DNA from: an uncultured Bacteroidales bacterium
GTDB lineage: Bacteria > Bacteroidota > Bacteroidia > Bacteroidales > F082
NCBI GenBank assembly: GCA_900318085.1
Contig: ONJF01000008.1
Coordinates: 1-55,899 of the forward strand
Reading direction: 5' to 3'
DNA: 55,899 nt
The notes beneath the pieces were generated by a model, which was not told the DNA's origin, searched no databases, and saw only the letters and a list, made by a program, of their open reading frames with translations. The position numbers and the translations under genes were made by a program. Within the stretch, counting starts at the first letter, position 1. The number at the start of each line of letters is the position of its first letter. Shown here in pieces: positions 5,266 through 39,226 of this stretch.

Positions 5266-5490
5266 ATGAACACCATCATCAAAACCAACTCCGAAAAACA
5301 ACTTGACCAAATCCGTCATTTTGCAAAGAAAAACAAAATCCAACACTCCATCACCCAGGAAAATGGAACTTACACAATCACCATCTCTGGATTAACTTAC
5401 TCTGAATCAGAAAAATTCATCCAACATTTCCTCAAAACCAACCATCTCACCAAAGTCAAGCAGCAAGAGCCGAAGGCTCTTGCTGCCTAA
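5266..5490 (+). CDS. Small cytosolic protein of unknown function
   Basis: This 74-residue protein has a pattern of helix, beta-hairpin and helix, roughly residues 8-22, 27-43 and 45-58. The coding strand is strikingly poor in G and rich in A and C compared with both neighbours, suggesting recent acquisition or unusual selection. The last residues QQEPKALAA are encoded by a perfect 12-bp hairpin. No family recognised. The next gene starts 20 bp later. Confidence 0.55.
   Translation: MNTIIKTNSEKQLDQIRHFAKKNKIQHSITQENGTYTITISGLTYSESEKFIQHFLKTNHLTKVKQQEPKALAA
5460..5486 (+). repeat. 12-bp perfect hairpin inside the 3' end of the small ORF
   Basis: GCAGCAAGAGCC (5460-5471), a GAA loop and GGCTCTTGCTGC (5475-5486) form a perfect stem that ends just before the TAA at 5488. 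No T-tract follows, so it is not a standard terminator. It could be an RNA-stabilising structure or a palindromic element that became the C-terminus of the reading frame. Confidence 0.7.
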
Positions 5491-5510
5491 ATGCAATTGT
5501 TTGTTAGGTT

Positions 5511-5939
5511 ATGGTTAATCATTCTTTTCATTTCAATAGGGGCCTTTTCAATGTAGGCGACACGGTCTATTATCGCTCGCCAGAGTCAAGATATGCCATT
5601 AGGAAGGCAAAAGTCGTTCAAGTGGAGGAACGAAAAAGCTATTTAAACATTCCAATTTGCCCTCGTAATGGCAATGAAACCCTTCATATTGACAATAAGA
5701 TTAGGGAATACACTCCTGCTGACCGCGGTGTCTACATTCCGTACGATGTACTTACCTTGGACAATGGCATCGTGATAGAAGCATCAGAGGTGTTCGCCAC
5801 ACGACAAGAGGCCGAGGCAGAACTCATCAGCGAACTCAAGGATCGGTTGATGTTCCAACAAGTGCAATTGGAGAATCTGAAGCATGAGATGGCTTATGAA
5901 GAGAAGACTTTAAGGCGTTTGGAACAGGGACAGCCTTAA
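5511..5939 (+). CDS. Hypothetical protein with C-terminal coiled coil
   Basis: This 142-residue soluble protein has an N-terminal region resembling a small beta-barrel (FNVGDTVYYRS followed by KAKVVQVEE), which recalls SH3/KOW-like folds. The helical C-terminus (about residues 98-138) is rich in E, L and Q. Function unknown; the fold suggestion is inference. It follows the small ORF by 20 bp, and its stop overlaps the convergent TPR gene by 4 bp. Confidence 0.6.
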   Translation: MVNHSFHFNRGLFNVGDTVYYRSPESRYAIRKAKVVQVEERKSYLNIPICPRNGNETLHIDNKIREYTPADRGVYIPYDVLTLDNGIVIEASEVFATRQEAEAELISELKDRLMFQQVQLENLKHEMAYEEKTLRRLEQGQP

Positions 5940-8050
5940 TTGCTTCGGGAGACCTCCAGTTTTCCAATCTCGACTTCGTTGTTCTCGGAGATGATCTCGA
6001 TCCATGTGTTGTCTTCGCTGAACCATTTGTATTGTGATCCGATGCGGAAGATGAAGGTCTTTTCCTCTTCGGTGGCCGCGATGGGCAGCACGAAGCCGCC
6101 GTTCTTGCCGCCTGCACCGCCGAAGGAGACGATCATGGGGAAGGTCTTCTCGGGATGCGGGTTACGTACCTTGATGATGATGTAGTTGGAGCGGCGCACG
6201 GCCACCTCAATCTTGTTGAAGTCGAAACGCTGGGCCTGTCCGGCAGCCAACAGCAAAGGCTCGCTGTTCAGCTCATAAAGTTTGTTCTGCTCGATGATTT
6301 CGCTGATGCGGGCAATCATCTCGGTGGGGTAGGTCTCCAGCCCAAGTTCCTCGGCTTTGGTGTAAGCCTCGATGGCCTTGTCGAAGGTGTTGGTCTTGAA
6401 GTTGGCGTCGCCTTCCTTGACGAACTTCTCGTATTGGCTGCGCAAGGCAGCGATACGGTCTCTCTCCGACTTCTCGGCAATGGCCAATTGTGCTGTGGCA
6501 GTGGGGTCTTCAGGCTTGTAGGCCAAAGCGGTCTGATACTGTGTTATAGCCTCGGCGAAGTTTTCTGCGGTCAAGGCGCTGTTGCCGGCGCTCATGGCCT
6601 TGTTGTAGTTGGCTTCCAGTTCGGCTGCCATCTGCGCAAAGATGCCGTCGATTTCCTGGATCTTGGCCGTGGCTATGGCGTTGCCGGCGTCGAAGGTCAC
6701 GACCTCTTGGTATTTGACCTTGGCGTTGGCATATTCCTGTTGGTCGAACAAGGCGTCAGCGGCATCGAGCATGCCCTTGATGGTTGCTTGGCGTTCGGCT
6801 TCAGCGGCGGCGAGGGCTGCCTGACGGGCGGCTTCCTCTTCGGCGGCGATGCGCGCTGCCTCGGCTTCGGCGGCCAATCGAGCGGCTTCTTCTTCAGCAG
6901 CGATACGCGCTGCCTCTTCTGCTGCCAGACGGGCGGCTTCCTGCTCGGCGGCAATTCTCGCAGCCTCTTGCTCGGCAGCGATGCGTGCGGCTTCGGCCTC
7001 GGCCGCTAACCTTGCAGCTTCGGCTTCAGCGGCAAGACGCGCCGCCTCTTGCTCGGCAGCGATACGCGCGGCTTCGGCTTCAGCAGCCAGACGAGCAGCT
7101 TCTTGCTCGGCGGCAATTCGGGCGGCCTCTTCGGCATCCTGTTGGGCGATGAGTGGGTCAAGACGGGCGATCATGTCGGTGGCATAGGCATCGCCTTTCA
7201 CCACGGCCAGTGCACTTTGGTATTGCGCCTTGGCTTCTTTGTAGGCCTTGTTCTCATAGAGTTGGTCGGCTACAGCGATGATGCCATTGTATTGGTCGGC
7301 AATGCCCTTGGCGCTTTGGTATTCATTGCGTTTGGCATTGGCATCGAGGTCATTGGGGAAGAGCTCCAAGGCTTGGTCGAGTTTGCCGATGGCGGCGTCG
7401 TAGTTCTTGCGCAGACCAAGTTGTCGTGCCTCCTCGACAAGCTTGTCGAAACGGGAGACCTTCTCGTTATAGAGTTGTTTCTTCTGTTTGGCTTCAGCCG
7501 TTTTCTCTTTGGGCAGTTTGTCGTTGGGGAAGATCTGGCTGGCCGTCTCAAACTGCATGATGGCGGCGTCGAAATTGTCCTCGGCCAAGAGGCTCTCGCC
7601 CAGACTCATGGCGGTGTCGTAGGCGTCTTGTTTGTCTTGGCGTTCCTTTAAGATGGCACGAACCGCTTCGGCTTGGCCGCCCACATATTTGTCCTCGGGG
7701 AAGACCTTCAATGCGGCTTCATATTCCGACAAAGCCTCTTCATATTTTTGTTGGCCATAATATTGGTCGCCGGCATCCAAATGGGCATAGAACACTTCCT
7801 GACGGGCACCGTCTTCCTGGATTTTCTTCACGGTCTCGGTCAGCTTTTGCTTGGCGGTGGGGTCGTTGGCCTTTTGCTTCAATGCCATCTCGTAGTAGGT
7901 CTTGGCACTGATGAAGTCCTTGGCGTTGTATTTCTCGTTGCCTTTCTTCATCAACGACTCGTAAGATTCGGCATTTTGGGCTTGGACAAAGTTAGCGCTC
8001 ATTACGAGTGCAGCGCCAAACAACAAGGAGAATATTAAGTGTTTTCTCAT
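5936..8050 (-). CDS. Large exported TPR protein with Ala/Glu-rich helical region
   Basis: This 704-residue protein starts with a signal peptide (cleavage near FVQAQ, residues 21-25). At least seven TPR-like units with the G-x-x-x-Y/F-x-x-x-D/N-F/Y-x-x-A pattern flank a central stretch (about residues 305-420). That stretch is made of units like EAARLAAE and EAARIAAE and probably forms a long single helix. The last 110 residues form a beta-rich domain. It is probably a periplasmic scaffold, possibly linked to the envelope. The DNA of the helical stretch (about 6790-7130) is internally repetitive and prone to slippage. No -7 element is evident upstream. Confidence 0.75.
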   Translation of the reverse strand: MRKHLIFSLLFGAALVMSANFVQAQNAESYESLMKKGNEKYNAKDFISAKTYYEMALKQKANDPTAKQKLTETVKKIQEDGARQEVFYAHLDAGDQYYGQQKYEEALSEYEAALKVFPEDKYVGGQAEAVRAILKERQDKQDAYDTAMSLGESLLAEDNFDAAIMQFETASQIFPNDKLPKEKTAEAKQKKQLYNEKVSRFDKLVEEARQLGLRKNYDAAIGKLDQALELFPNDLDANAKRNEYQSAKGIADQYNGIIAVADQLYENKAYKEAKAQYQSALAVVKGDAYATDMIARLDPLIAQQDAEEAARIAAEQEAARLAAEAEAARIAAEQEAARLAAEAEAARLAAEAEAARIAAEQEAARIAAEQEAARLAAEEAARIAAEEEAARLAAEAEAARIAAEEEAARQAALAAAEAERQATIKGMLDAADALFDQQEYANAKVKYQEVVTFDAGNAIATAKIQEIDGIFAQMAAELEANYNKAMSAGNSALTAENFAEAITQYQTALAYKPEDPTATAQLAIAEKSERDRIAALRSQYEKFVKEGDANFKTNTFDKAIEAYTKAEELGLETYPTEMIARISEIIEQNKLYELNSEPLLLAAGQAQRFDFNKIEVAVRRSNYIIIKVRNPHPEKTFPMIVSFGGAGGKNGGFVLPIAATEEEKTFIFRIGSQYKWFSEDNTWIEIISENNEVEIGKLEVSRSN

Positions 8051-33551: not shown

Positions 33552-34040
33552 ATGAAAAAACACTATCAGAGAACCCTGTTGACCGTATGCTTCTGTTGGG
33601 CTTTTATCAGCAGTTTCGCCCAAGTGAAAGTGTATAAAGGAAATTCCTCCTACAGTAGCGACGTGATTTGCAATGTGAAGGACAATAAAGTTTATAAAGG
33701 TAATTCCTTGTACTCGTCTGATGTCCTTTGTCGAATTGACGACAACAAAGTGTACAAGGGCAATTCCTCATACAGCAGTGATATCCTGTTCACCATCAGG
33801 GATGGGAAAGTCTATCGAGGGTCGTCATCGTATTCTTCCGATGTGGTTTTCACAATCAGGGACGGCAAGCTCTACCAAGGCAATTCGAGTTATTCATCCG
33901 ACGTTTTTGCCAACAAGCAAGGTCTCAAAGTGTATAAAAACAACTCCAGTTATTCTTCGGATGTTGAGTTCACCCTTTCCGACAATGTCACTATCGAACA
34001 GTTTGTGGCCATTTGGTATGCGGTGAAGTACTGCTGGTAA
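33552..34040 (+). CDS. Exported protein of six 20-residue tandem repeats
   Basis: This 162-residue protein has a signal peptide (cleavage near SSFAQ, residue 24). Six repeats of exactly 20 residues follow (residues 26-145), each starting KVYKGNSSYSSDV or close to it and ending in a turn such as DN or DG. The tail has IEQFVAIWYAVKYCW. The serine codons differ widely between repeats, so the protein sequence is kept while the DNA has diverged. A beta-propeller-like or small beta-solenoid fold is likely; function unknown. It is flanked by tandem promoters and a terminator. Confidence 0.85.
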   Translation: MKKHYQRTLLTVCFCWAFISSFAQVKVYKGNSSYSSDVICNVKDNKVYKGNSLYSSDVLCRIDDNKVYKGNSSYSSDILFTIRDGKVYRGSSSYSSDVVFTIRDGKLYQGNSSYSSDVFANKQGLKVYKNNSSYSSDVEFTLSDNVTIEQFVAIWYAVKYCW

Positions 34041-36291: not shown

Positions 36292-36527
36292 CGATAATTT
36301 GGTGGAATGATTGTGTGGTTCAAATTATTTTCGAAATAGCATGATGCTTGGGGCGTTTTTACAGTCCATTTTTCGCCAACTCGCCGAATGAATTATTGTC
36401 AAGTTCTCAGATAGATTTTTATATTTTTGATATACAGAGACTTGTGTTATTGTTTTAATATGAATGATAAACCTTTATGAAACTAGATTTCATCTTTCAA
36501 GACGATTGTTATATGTCGGAATAATTG
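36292..36527. other. AT-rich gap at the left edge of the R-M island
   Basis: No gene is supported in this stretch. It is more AT-rich than the neighbouring core genes. It holds a short hairpin ATGAAA/TTTCAT at about 36477-36493 and few other features. It probably contains the left junction of the accessory island, but no clear direct repeat marks it. Confidence 0.4.
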
Positions 36528-36535
36528 TATCTTTG
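36528..36535 (+). promoter_or_regulatory. -7 promoter element for the R-M operon
   Basis: TATCTTTG is an exact TAnnTTTG match 44 bp before the start codon of the truncated methylase at 36580. It should still drive the endonuclease gene downstream. Confidence 0.65.
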
Positions 36536-36579: not shown

Positions 36580-36703
36580 AATGAAAGCGAAACCATTTAT
36601 CAAATGGGTAGGCGGGAAAGGCCAACTCATTGAACAACTCGAAGCAATGCTTCCTGCTGACTTTGATAATTGGGAGAACGTCACTGACACAATAAACGTA
36701 TGA
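36580..36703 (+). pseudogene. Remnant of a Dam-type adenine methylase (internal deletion)
   Basis: The 40-residue frame starts MKAKPFIKWVGGKGQLIEQL, the N-terminal AdoMet-binding motif (FIKWVGGKG) of alpha-class Dam/DpnM methylases, and continues through PADFDNWENVT. Full-length members (about 270-300 residues) then have the FVGGG region, but here the frame goes straight to DTINV and stops. The catalytic DPPY is gone, so the protein cannot methylate. Promoter, start and stop are intact, and the TGA overlaps the endonuclease ATG (ATGA), so translational coupling is kept. TGACACAA occurs on both sides of this overlap (36685-36692 and 36701-36708). Confidence 0.75.
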
Positions 36704-37443
36704 CACAAGCACAGGCAGTTATAGAAACAATTGAAGCATTAGGTGGTATTGCTACACTTAACCAAATCAATCAGAACATATTCAAAATCAAGGATTGTGT
36801 TTGGAGGACAAAAACACCATTTGCGAGCATTCGACGTATAGTCCAATTAACTGATGGCATTTATAAAATCAAACCTGGATTGTACGCATTGGAAACCCAT
36901 CGCAAACGGCTTGAAATGGAAGGTATTATCGTTCAAACAGAAAAGAATAAGGATAGTGATGAAGTAAAATCTTTCAACCACGCTTATTACCAAGGCTTGT
37001 TGCTCGAAATCGGGAAAATACGTCATCTTTTGACCTTTGTTCCTGACCAAGATAAAAACAAAAAGTTCTTGCAAACTCCATTGGGCGACTTGCGCACTTT
37101 GGATGCGATTCCACAATATACATATCCTGGCATTGTTAAGCGTAGTTCCACTATTGACGTTATTTGGTTCAATGGCAATCAGTTGCCTCATTCTTTCTTT
37201 GAGATTGAACACTCAACCGATATTCAAAATTCCTTGCTGAAATATAAGGATCTTCAAGATTTTTATGTTCGTATGGTCATTGTTGCAGATGAAAAAAGAC
37301 ATCAAGAGTATTTAAATAAGTTGTCATATGCTGCCTTTGATACGCTTCGCGATAATAATCGAGTGGCGTTTCTGAGTTACGAATCGCTTGATAAACAGTA
37401 TGAAAAAGAGTTAATGATGCAACAATTAGATTTTATTATATAG
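36700..37443 (+). CDS. Winged-helix plus PD-(D/E)XK-like restriction endonuclease
   Basis: This 247-residue protein starts in the ATGA overlap. Residues 1-65 look like a HARE-HTH-type winged helix: AQAVIETIEALGGIATLNQI, then TPFASIRRIV and YKIKPGLYAL. The second part has the nuclease-like pattern STIDVIWFN (D153), then SFFEIEHSTDI (E168 and E170), with E103 on a preceding helix. That fits a PD-(D/E)XK core with a glutamate in place of the usual lysine. Next to methylase genes it is best read as a type II restriction enzyme. Recognition site unknown. The gene is AT-rich compared with core genes, which suggests transfer. Confidence 0.7.
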   Translation: MTQAQAVIETIEALGGIATLNQINQNIFKIKDCVWRTKTPFASIRRIVQLTDGIYKIKPGLYALETHRKRLEMEGIIVQTEKNKDSDEVKSFNHAYYQGLLLEIGKIRHLLTFVPDQDKNKKFLQTPLGDLRTLDAIPQYTYPGIVKRSSTIDVIWFNGNQLPHSFFEIEHSTDIQNSLLKYKDLQDFYVRMVIVADEKRHQEYLNKLSYAAFDTLRDNNRVAFLSYESLDKQYEKELMMQQLDFII

Positions 37444-37517
37444 ACTATTCGATTAAATTAAATCATTTAAATGAAAGCATTAGAAATATAAGAAATAATA
37501 CAAACATATAATAATCA

Positions 37518-37727
37518 AGCGTTTGCTATTTGTTCTATTCGCATTGAAACCTAGGAAATTTCAAGAATAGTAAAAAGAACAAATCGTTATGCGACCCTAC
37601 TGCGGGTGTGATTTGTCTTTTACTTGGTTTTCCTAGGACCACAATGCGAGCAAATCATTGCCCGCAGTTTTTGTGTGTCCTATGGAAGACAAAATAGTAA
37701 CTGGTAGCAAACATAAAAACAAACGCT
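37518..37727 (+). ncRNA. Structured twin-hairpin element with complementary loops
   Basis: Hairpin A spans 37528-37584 with stems 37528-37535/37577-37584, 37536-37540/37565-37569 and 37544-37549/37559-37564 and a 9-nt loop CCTAGGAAA (37550-37558). Hairpin C spans 37599-37668 with stems 37599-37606/37661-37668, 37609-37615/37651-37657 and 37625-37628/37638-37641 and a 9-nt loop TTTCCTAGG (37629-37637). The two loops are exact reverse complements. Hairpin C ends in a T5 run like a terminator. Outer arms AGCGTTTG (37518-37525) and CAAACGCT (37720-37727) also pair. Whether it acts as RNA or as DNA is unknown; no family recognised. Confidence 0.6.
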
Positions 37728-37730
37728 ACA

Positions 37731-38957
37731 ATGAGTTACAATGAATTAGGGTCTATTAAGGCTTTCTATCAAAGCCGAGGAATTGACCACCTCGAATCAT
37801 TCACTATTTATCATGGTGATTGCAGAATACTACTACATGGAATCCCTGACAACTCCATAGACGCCATCTTTGCCGATCCGCCATATTTTCTCAGTAACGG
37901 CGGCATCAGCGTCCATAGCGGCAAGCAGGTATGCGTGGATAAAGGTGATTGGGATAAAGGCGGCACTCCAGAGTATATCTACGAGTTCAACCGCCAATGG
38001 CTTGCCTTGTGTCGTACCAAGTTGCGCGACGACGGCACGATTTGGATTAGCGGAACACATCACAACATTCATATCGTCATGCGCTGTCTGCAAGAGTTGG
38101 GCTACAAGGTGCTGAACACCATTACTTGGCAAAAGACAGACCCGCCGCCCAATCTTTCATGCCGTTATTTCAATTTCTCAACCGAGCTGATTATTTGGGC
38201 TCGCAAGTTTGAGAAGAAGCCGCATAAATTCAATTATGAAACGATGAAGCTGCTCAATGGTGGGCAGCAAATGACAGATGTCTGGCGCATTCCGGCAGTC
38301 AGCCTATGGGAGAAACAGCAAGGCAAACACCCGACGCAAAAGCCCTTGCGTTTACTCTATCGCATCATCCTTGCCTCTACCAACGAAGGCGACACCGTCA
38401 TGGATCCATTTAGCGGTTCAGGAACAACTGGCATTGCGGCCAATCTGCTCGGTCGTAAATACATTGGCATTGAGCAGGACGAGCAGTTCTGCGAGTTGTC
38501 CATGCGTCGCCGTCAAGCCTTGGAAGACGAGAATACGCGCAAGAAACTGTTTGACAAGATGCGCTCTACACCCGAAGAAACGACTGTGCTCATCAATCAC
38601 ATGCGCGAAAAAGATCGCGAAAAAGCGATGCTGTTGGGTATAACCTATGTGCGCGTTGGTGATGCCAAAGGCTCATTATTGGTCAAAGAAGGATTTGAGC
38701 GTTTGGGGTATGTGTGCCTACACACCAGAGGCGACGATCCCCAATTGTATAGACTAACCAAAAAAGGCTTTCAGATATGGACGGCTGAGGCATTGCGTGA
38801 GGAAGGCTTCTCTGCAGAGAACGCTCCTTATTACGCAGTGATGCGCTTTGATTCCTCGGAGCAAGTTACGTTTGACCAACCCATCGACCTTCACAGACGC
38901 CAGTACACCGAAGTCGCGCGCATACAACCGCTTAGCGATTTTATCGGGTTAAGATAG
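37731..38957 (+). CDS. Beta-class DNA methyltransferase (DpnA/HinfI-like)
   Basis: This 408-residue enzyme has the catalytic motif DPPY (49-52) before the AdoMet motif PFSGSGT (226-232), the order of beta-class amino-methyltransferases. The DPPYFLSNGG context is seen in the DpnA group, which makes N6-methyladenine. The usual domain ends near residue 270, so about 135 C-terminal residues form an extension with a helix-rich region (REKDREKAMLLGITYVRVGD) and RLTKKGFQIWTAEALREEGF. The extension may help bind DNA. With the Dam-type gene broken, this is the only intact methylase of the island. Its start lies 4 bp after the structured element. Confidence 0.85.
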   Translation: MSYNELGSIKAFYQSRGIDHLESFTIYHGDCRILLHGIPDNSIDAIFADPPYFLSNGGISVHSGKQVCVDKGDWDKGGTPEYIYEFNRQWLALCRTKLRDDGTIWISGTHHNIHIVMRCLQELGYKVLNTITWQKTDPPPNLSCRYFNFSTELIIWARKFEKKPHKFNYETMKLLNGGQQMTDVWRIPAVSLWEKQQGKHPTQKPLRLLYRIILASTNEGDTVMDPFSGSGTTGIAANLLGRKYIGIEQDEQFCELSMRRRQALEDENTRKKLFDKMRSTPEETTVLINHMREKDREKAMLLGITYVRVGDAKGSLLVKEGFERLGYVCLHTRGDDPQLYRLTKKGFQIWTAEALREEGFSAENAPYYAVMRFDSSEQVTFDQPIDLHRRQYTEVARIQPLSDFIGLR

Positions 38958-38965
38958 TGTGTTCT

Positions 38966-39226
38966 CAGTTCTTTCCAAAATGGAAATAACTGAAAAAATG
39001 ACTGTTGCAAAAATTGCAACTGTCATCTAATGAGTTGGGGAAAAGCAACCTGTCGGAAAATCCGACAAGTTCACTCAATTGTTTCATAGAAAAATCGGAA
39101 TTCCGATTTTTTAAGTTGTTGCAAAATATGCAATAACTGTCCCTGATGCGGAATAGTGGTATTTTCCAAAATGGAAATAACCACTCTAATTGAATTTGCC
39201 AGTTGCCGAGAAAAACTCGGTAACTG
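38966..39226. repeat. Array of seven short hairpins with A-rich loops
   Basis: Seven distinct inverted repeats lie at 38966-38992, 38998-39026, 39047-39071, 39090-39111, 39114-39138, 39155-39185 and 39200-39226. Six share one plan: an outer stem of 3-6 bp, a mismatch of 1-2 nt, an inner stem of 5-7 bp and an A-rich loop of 3-5 nt. The fourth is a perfect 22-bp palindrome. Stem sequences differ, so it is not a tandem repeat in the usual sense. It fills the gap between the methylase and parE and holds no convincing ORF. The last hairpin may end parE transcription. Confidence 0.75.

Follow-up and report, generated by a model that had tools for sequence, protein, structure and literature searches.

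Two hairpins lying between a putative restriction gene and a DNA methyltransferase gene in the window (the whole stretch of 55,899 nucleotides analyzed here) represent a single member of a large, dispersed family of structured elements about 160 nt long. We put at roughly two in three (0.68) the probability that the element is a new cis-acting leader RNA, outside Rfam, that controls read-through into accessory genes by strand exchange; from the sequence comparisons set out below, the leader probably decides whether the genes downstream of it are read. The leader family has apparently not been described before: in the titles and abstract openings covered by a literature search (including PMC9723704, PMC8040213 and PMC2864571, each seen in part) there was no description of it, although an unnamed candidate could sit in supplementary tables.

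Layout of the Element in the Window

A first-pass annotation had placed hairpin A at 37528-37584 and hairpin C at 37599-37668, with 9-nt loops that are exact reverse complements (CCTAGGAAA at 37550-37558 and TTTCCTAGG at 37629-37637) and with pairing flanks. All of this was confirmed, the flanking helix being CGCATTG (37540-37546) with CAATGCG (37642-37648). It had also likened hairpin C to a terminator. The GC-rich base and the T5 that follows it (37668-37672) are present, but a scan of 37400-37760 for a standard intrinsic terminator (GC-rich stem, loop of 3-8 nt, T run) returned none, because the GC-rich stem before T5 closes about 50 nt. Finally, it had set the element between restriction and methylase genes; the methylase stands, whereas the restriction (R) gene is putative, with one weak PADLOC match and no Pfam or NCBIfam match at 1e-3. 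The parts referred to below are as follows.

36506-36535, plus strand: promoter-like TTG-N19-TATCTTTG upstream of the R gene, the nearest TTG-spaced form
36700-37443, plus strand: putative type II restriction enzyme (R gene), upstream of the element; PADLOC REase_II match, 6.2e-7
37518-37730, plus strand: whole leader element, from a sharp 5' boundary at AGCG to the base before the methyltransferase start codon
37518-37535, plus strand: conserved 5' strand AGCGTTTGCTATTTGTTC; possible partners are GAACAAA of hairpin A, arm3 and the right end
37528-37584, plus strand: hairpin A, with outer stem TTTGTTC/GAACAAA and apical stem TGAAA/TTTCA
37540-37546, plus strand: helix a1, 5' strand, paired in the anchored test
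37550-37558, plus strand: loop 1, which covaries with loop 2
37569-37578, plus strand: helix b, 5' strand (family duplex test)
37591-37597, plus strand: c5 strand, antiterminator candidate, pairing with c3 (family duplex test)
37600-37617, plus strand: c3 strand, whose partner is c5 or arm3
37616-37624, plus strand: helix b, 3' strand (family duplex test)
37625-37628 and 37638-37641, plus strand: apical stem of hairpin C, TGGT/ACCA, closing loop 2
37629-37637, plus strand: loop 2, the switch strand, pairing with loop 1 or else, for most loop types, with the post-terminator segment
37642-37648, plus strand: helix a1, 3' strand (anchored test and covariation in alignment A3)
37649-37667, plus strand: arm3, the 3' strand of helix H (base of hairpin C), with all H1 pairs changed on both sides
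37668-37672, plus strand: T tract, T5, with T enriched across the family
37677-37685, plus strand: post-terminator segment GTCCTATGG, with complementarity to loop 2 plus the flank 3' of it
37703-37712, plus strand: right end GGTAGCAAAC, close to the start codon and with complementarity to the 5' strand
37731-38957, plus strand: downstream gene, a CcrM-like type II N6/N4 DNA methyltransferase (PF01555, 1.8e-60; PADLOC MTase_II, 2.1e-95)

The RNA minimum free energy of 37510-37735 was -66.5 kcal/mol, against -44.3 ± 3.9 kcal/mol for 200 shuffled sequences (z = -5.6, none as low). Owing to its quasi-palindromic make-up, the element stood out from shuffles to a similar degree when folded as the minus strand (z = -6.3) or as single-stranded DNA (z = -5.6). 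A stretch immediately ahead of the R gene, at 36581-36700, matches a Dam-like methyltransferase (TIGR00571, 4.3e-6) over its first ~30 codons and then breaks off; it is probably the decayed remnant of an earlier methylase at this site.

Members and Distribution of the Family

The first-pass annotation had proposed a covariance-model search, and this recovered many homologues, including ones before genes other than methylases. When the intergenic region was searched as DNA against 297 relatives (limit E 10, at which there were chance matches in every genome), four copies proved near-identical (94-99% identity), and about 60 other places matched at E ≤ 1e-3 per genome. A strict pattern search of genome_contigs gave 117 stretches, all from Bacteroidota bar one labelled only "uncultured bacterium" (L101). 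Within the window's genus, 92 of 99 genomes had matches to covariance model R1 (139.5 bits for the window leader, 37518-37671), with up to 14 copies each; the window's own genome has five (four under a different filter). Across a sample of the phylum the model matched 18 of 395 genomes, in 13 of 171 genera. Of the 17 other than the window's own, six reached 41-75 bits and eleven only 25-40 bits; two of the weak ones fall in another class, and one (L189, 33 bits), in which the helices are not evident, is doubtful. Named isolates carrying the leader are Duncaniella muris DSM 103720, Heminiphilus faecis AM35 and Bacteroides sp. ET71.

At the gathering threshold, Rfam 15 matched only two tRNAs in the window, and at E values up to 1 there was nothing at the element, Flavo-1 included, in five loci plus 20 distant ones. 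Spread by viruses or plasmids was considered and is unsupported, the strict pattern having no match in viral_contigs and the 2.9-kb region none in the plasmid collection.

From 118 strict copies we removed two that were short (L082, L122) and three that were disrupted or enlarged (L118, L128, L058), leaving 113, of which 59 were non-redundant. Omitting L057, L077, L078 and L079 left 55 copies for the anchored test of a1; omitting also L045 and L056 left 53 for minimum-free-energy folds, for the duplex tests of loop 2 with the downstream segment and of the 5' strand, and for alignment A2. Alignment A3 holds 51 copies, L036 and L114 being left out as well. The leaders of L058 and L079 are ~65 nt longer between hairpins A and C (model matches span 231 nt) and are otherwise recognizable. 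L039 is the sole locus among 100 with two full copies, which share a strand and are separated by 2.3 kb (5432-5596 and 7697-7859), and L071 has a second, partial match at 606-732.

Covariation of Helices and Loops

Conservation begins at (T)AGCG, with AGCG 91-98% conserved per position in 58 copies; TTTGCTATTTGT was fixed by the search pattern, and AGCG lies outside the fixed part. Within the element, helix a1 was tested free of any alignment, by comparing the five bases 5' of TGAAA with the five 3' of ACC-N-CA, both taken by adjacency. In the 55 copies, which have 30 distinct 5' strands, 97.1% of positions were paired, against 54.0 ± 2.5% in shuffles (maximum 62.5%). For the structure as a whole, 92.3% of cells were paired, compared with 83.2 ± 0.4% after shuffling and 37.5-47.6% when the strands were slid, and 175 cells had changed on both sides (52.5 in shuffles). 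In A3, a1, the hairpin A stem and the loop-loop helix together were 95.6% paired against 81.1%, with 140 both-side cells against 35.5; the number of pairs with both-side changes (8 versus 7.5) and of pair types (22 versus 20.8) did not exceed shuffles. The first-pass annotation had named homologues that conserve sequence without paired changes as grounds for doubt, and what we found was the opposite, paired changes being abundant.

The loop hexamers were exact complements in 108 of 115 parsed copies, representing five loop types, the second hexamer having been chosen partly by complementarity. In 62 diverged copies outside the training set, the loop-loop column pairs 45-179, 46-178, 48-176 and 49-175, which are absent from the model's structure, were 96-100% paired with three or four pair types each. 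Helix b formed a better duplex within its own copy than across sequences in all 53 copies (-11.9 versus -6.6 kcal/mol), and H1, part of helix H, showed both-side changes at 8 of 8 pairs with 95.3% of cells paired. Covariation claimed for the apical stems fared differently in the two hairpins. That of hairpin A (TGAAA/TTTCA) is nearly invariant and hence shows none, whereas that of hairpin C does vary (TGGT/ACCA, CGGT/ACCG, CACC/GGTG, CAGT/ACTG and AGGC/GCCT), but with only 67.5% of cells paired in the MAFFT alignment, which in our reading is due to the variable length of the loop flanks. G-U pairs outnumbered A-C pairs by 87 to 25, so that the coding strand is the folded one; this test does not tell RNA from single-stranded DNA.

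A P1 stem formed by the 5' strand with arm3 was also tried. It beat shuffles in 46 of 53 copies but not the cross-sequence duplexes (-7.2 versus -7.7 kcal/mol), and is unproven.

Competing Strands and the T Tract

The c3 strand has two partners. Its duplex with c5 was better within copies than across them in 49 of 53 cases (-17.9 versus -13.4 kcal/mol), and its duplex with arm3 (helix H) in every one of the 53; two other strand pairs, taken as controls, were flat, at 30/53 and 24/53. What is conserved thus describes a switch, with c5 and arm3 in competition for c3. Helix H also crosses a1 and the loop-loop helix, so that these are either alternatives or parts of a pseudoknot. When the copies were folded up to the T tract, 45 of the 53 minimum-free-energy structures contained the loop-loop helix but only 8 contained H, i.e., thermodynamics alone favour the a1/loop/c fold up to that point.

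At least six T in the 7 nt after arm3 were found in 37 of 58 copies (shuffled, 7.8 ± 2.4; 2 with A as control base), and at least five in 48 (shuffled, 30.1 ± 3.0). The other 10 have fewer than five, and in these T-poor copies control may be translational. Two conserved, mutually exclusive helices that share a strand, one of them followed by a T tract, have the make-up predicted for a terminator/antiterminator pair.

Loop 2 has a further possible partner beyond the T tract. Its duplex with the post-terminator segment was stronger within copies than with other loop types in 45 of 53 (-12.4 versus -7.6 kcal/mol); the window's own CCTAGG loop type (nine copies) showed no excess of this pairing (-9.2 versus -9.6).

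Position, Orientation and Promoters

Downstream sequence of 330 nt was available for 114 strict copies, and in 93 of these the pattern match is followed, at a distance of 160-265 nt, by the start of an ORF on the same strand. For the other 21, the longest-ORF rule puts the start farther off or finds none, and some of these copies are disrupted or near contig ends. Among diverged copies of the genus, a same-strand ORF of at least 50 aa begins 150-330 nt downstream in 40 of 40, although that of L207 has only 53 aa, and L207, L227 and L228 face an opposite ORF of at least 100 aa; these orientation figures are raw counts for leader loci only.

Upstream, we looked for the promoter motif TAnnTTTG. 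Of the 57 non-redundant copies with 160 nt of upstream sequence, 34 contained it there, against 4.8 ± 2.0 in shuffles and 10 on the reverse strand, and 31 of these 34 have one 43-103 nt upstream. A TTG lay 18-22 nt before the motif in 17 of the 57 (shuffled, 0.39; reverse strand, 3). By this enrichment the element appears to lie in a 5' untranslated region and to be a transcribed 5' leader: its predicted place is between promoter and start codon, with the coding strand folded. The window copy departs from this in the promoter, since it has no perfect TAnnTTTG within 160 nt upstream, and its leader may be co-transcribed with the R gene. The motif is also named in PMC9723704. A promoter inside TAGCGTTTGC (TA-N3-TTTG) was entertained and dropped: distant copies keep AGCGTT without that spacing, and TAnnTTTG mostly lies 43-103 nt upstream.

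Downstream Genes and Modularity

Pfam matches among 105 downstream ORFs comprised N6_N4_Mtase (28), MethyltransfD12 (17), N6_Mtase (7), Eco57I (5) and EcoRI_methylase (3), and, outside the methylases, Acyl_transf_3 (5), PAP2 (5) and Mfa_like_1 (3). One protein can match several families, and methyltransferases make up roughly half of the ORFs or somewhat more, in agreement with PADLOC, whose MTase_II model PDLC03302 matched 41 of the 105. With regard to a type III toxin-antitoxin system (ToxI-ToxN), whose RNA lies upstream of a ToxN-family gene, ToxN was absent among the 25 families listed of the 42 matched. A further 54 downstream ORFs gave N6_N4_Mtase (5), ResIII (4), D12 (3), HSDR_N_2 (2), EcoRI_methylase (1) and Mrr_cat_2 (1); here methyltransferases are a minority, and the rest include, by eye, secreted, HTH and unassigned proteins. 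Altogether, 90 distinct leaders precede proteins of 24 BLASTP clusters, "unrelated" meaning no BLASTP link at 1e-6, with the caveats that L146 and L127 share a start yet are split and that low-identity pairs of L057 are a contig-end artefact.

The leaders of L126 and L047 are 88% identical over 222 nt (-40 to +179) and are followed by proteins of different clusters; their flanks, compared over up to 500 nt, had no further match at 1e-3. In five other pairs similarity ends between -8 and -57 on one side and between +165 and +226 on the other, and in a seventh (L131/L090, 83.5% over 741 nt, -500 to +234) the loci differ only behind the leader. Closely similar leaders before different genes imply a shuffled module, and these alignments indicate that the leader moves between genes. 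Orthologues of the methyltransferase in G031, G071, G050, G060, G008 and G013 are 85-93% identical but match only from residue 22-23 on; these six loci have no leader-model match, and by eye the genes begin where a different upstream ORF ends. Conversely, in G080/L256 the leader region is kept at 95%, whereas the methyltransferase is only 62-63% identical, and it seems that the enzyme was exchanged while the leader before it was conserved. In a secreted-protein family of 17 loci, a leader match lies just upstream in nine, with TAnnTTTG before seven of these (by eye); two more have a partial match, and six have no leader there. Five of these six closely follow an upstream ORF, and the other (L283) has a promoter and a short, leaderless 5' region.

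Proposed Mechanism and Alternative Explanations

We propose that the leader, lying between promoter and start codon, would act as a co-transcriptional strand-exchange switch. The early RNA would be a compact four-way junction (a1, the tip of hairpin A, b plus c, and the tip of hairpin C) with its 9-nt loops paired. If the junction persisted, arm3 would be kept from c3 and RNA polymerase would read through into the methylase; if the fold opened, c3-arm3 would form beside the T tract and transcription would stop. After read-through, the downstream segment might capture loop 2 and reset the fold. The choice between folds might be tipped by a ligand, a protein, temperature, the ribosome or simple kinetics. 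Of the functions suggested in the first-pass annotation, an attenuator is the best supported, given an oriented 5' leader, exclusive conserved helices and a T tract, but its supposed role in timing one methylase is too narrow, since related leaders precede 24 clusters of proteins.

Alternatively, though we think it unlikely, the leader might act after transcription, controlling translation start or mRNA decay through pairing of the 5' strand with the right end, the T tract being incidental. This would suit an element that ends just before the ATG and the poor T tract of some groups. The right end does complement the 5' strand better than shuffled sequence does in 46 of 53 copies (-13.1 versus -9.1 kcal/mol), but duplexes across sequences reach -12.5 kcal/mol, i.e., the pairing is without covariation, and T is enriched at a fixed place.

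We regard as improbable the idea that the end product is the terminated RNA of about 150 nt, which would act in trans as a small RNA whose exposed loops pair with other leaders or mRNAs. The loops could indeed pair between molecules, and genomes carry several copies; against this, each copy keeps its own complementarity across the five loop types of the close set and further ones among diverged copies, and the leader has an almost fixed position with respect to the gene behind it. An antisense-type RNA acting in trans, as raised in the first-pass annotation, is not needed to explain the data.

Slightly less credible still is a mobile DNA palindrome (REP/BIME, MITE or an IS200/IS605-type end) lying upstream of genes by chance, another suggestion of that annotation. 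The element is quasi-palindromic and dispersed, similarity stops near the leader ends in six of the seven pairs compared, and complementarity between the ends TTTGCTATTTGT and ACAAATAGCAA extends over 11-12 nt in 8 of 53 copies and over at least 7 nt in 19. However, near-constant orientation and spacing to the start codon, the lack of arrays, the upstream promoters and the conserved mutually exclusive helices speak against a mobile palindrome; viral_contigs held no strict-pattern match, and the leader occurs in 27 of the 29 genomes of the genus without a detected Y1 transposase, many of these genomes being incomplete. The doubtful copy L189 lies beside a Y1-like ORF (named by eye), which had suggested REP/RAYT; this is unsupported, the leader being present in genomes in which no Y1 transposase was detected.

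A recombination site, either integron attC-like or an invertible promoter, is very improbable: folded hairpins, a cassette-like variety of downstream genes and complementary ends in some copies would fit it, but orientation is nearly always the same, and the 100 loci scanned, with one second full copy (L039) and one partial match (L071), hold no arrays, so that integron-like ones are unsupported.

Relation to Known Systems

A strand-exchange leader of this kind would resemble riboswitches with transcription-terminating platforms, which share the 5' leader, the multi-helix junction with a loop-loop contact and the exclusive terminator/antiterminator strands; loop-loop contacts are found in cobalamin-type riboswitches. 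Unlike riboswitches, the present leader has no Rfam match at the element, its downstream genes share no evident pathway, and distant copies have few invariant nucleotides. Leader attenuators and antitermination leaders of the RfaH, UpxY, put and EAR types serve accessory, horizontally variable genes, including surface genes; ours differs in its length of about 160 nt, in its own conserved strand switch and in also preceding methylase genes. REP/BIME elements with RAYT are likewise paired inverted hairpins and dispersed, whereas this element sits in a 5'-leader position and is found in genomes without a detected Y1 transposase. Flavo-1 (RF01705) and the other Bacteroidota motifs of Weinberg 2010 are similar in phylum and in their many copies, but no Rfam match was obtained at E values up to 1 in 20 distant leader loci. 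According to PMC9723704, Flavo-1 matches lie in sense or antisense of F. psychrophilum transcripts.

The element would work, as far as its conserved strands indicate, like a terminator/antiterminator leader matched by none of the Rfam families tested, with an unusual set of downstream genes. Known structured leaders mostly serve one pathway, whereas this one precedes several families of methyltransferases and other variable genes in many Bacteroidota. If it controls them, the restraint of restriction-modification and of surface genes in the phylum becomes testable at the RNA level. For work on RNA tertiary contacts and on three-strand exchange, the loop-loop covariation is, moreover, a clean data set.

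Tentatively, and with distinctly less confidence, one can imagine a phylum-wide, horizontally shuffled riboregulator: a single ancestral module before unrelated accessory genes (methyltransferases, restriction enzymes, surface and secreted proteins) that would answer one shared cue, loop identity drifting freely because only internal complementarity matters. Were this so, the methylation and surface programmes of gut bacteria would form a single RNA regulon.

Two other repeat-bearing stretches were observed in the window. Between the methylase and the next, convergent ORF, 38962-39183 holds three 31-nt repeats (TTCCAAAATGGAAATAACTG-like) and inverted repeats, and at 33552-34040 a 162-aa ORF carries about six repeats of the KVYKGNSSYSSDV type.
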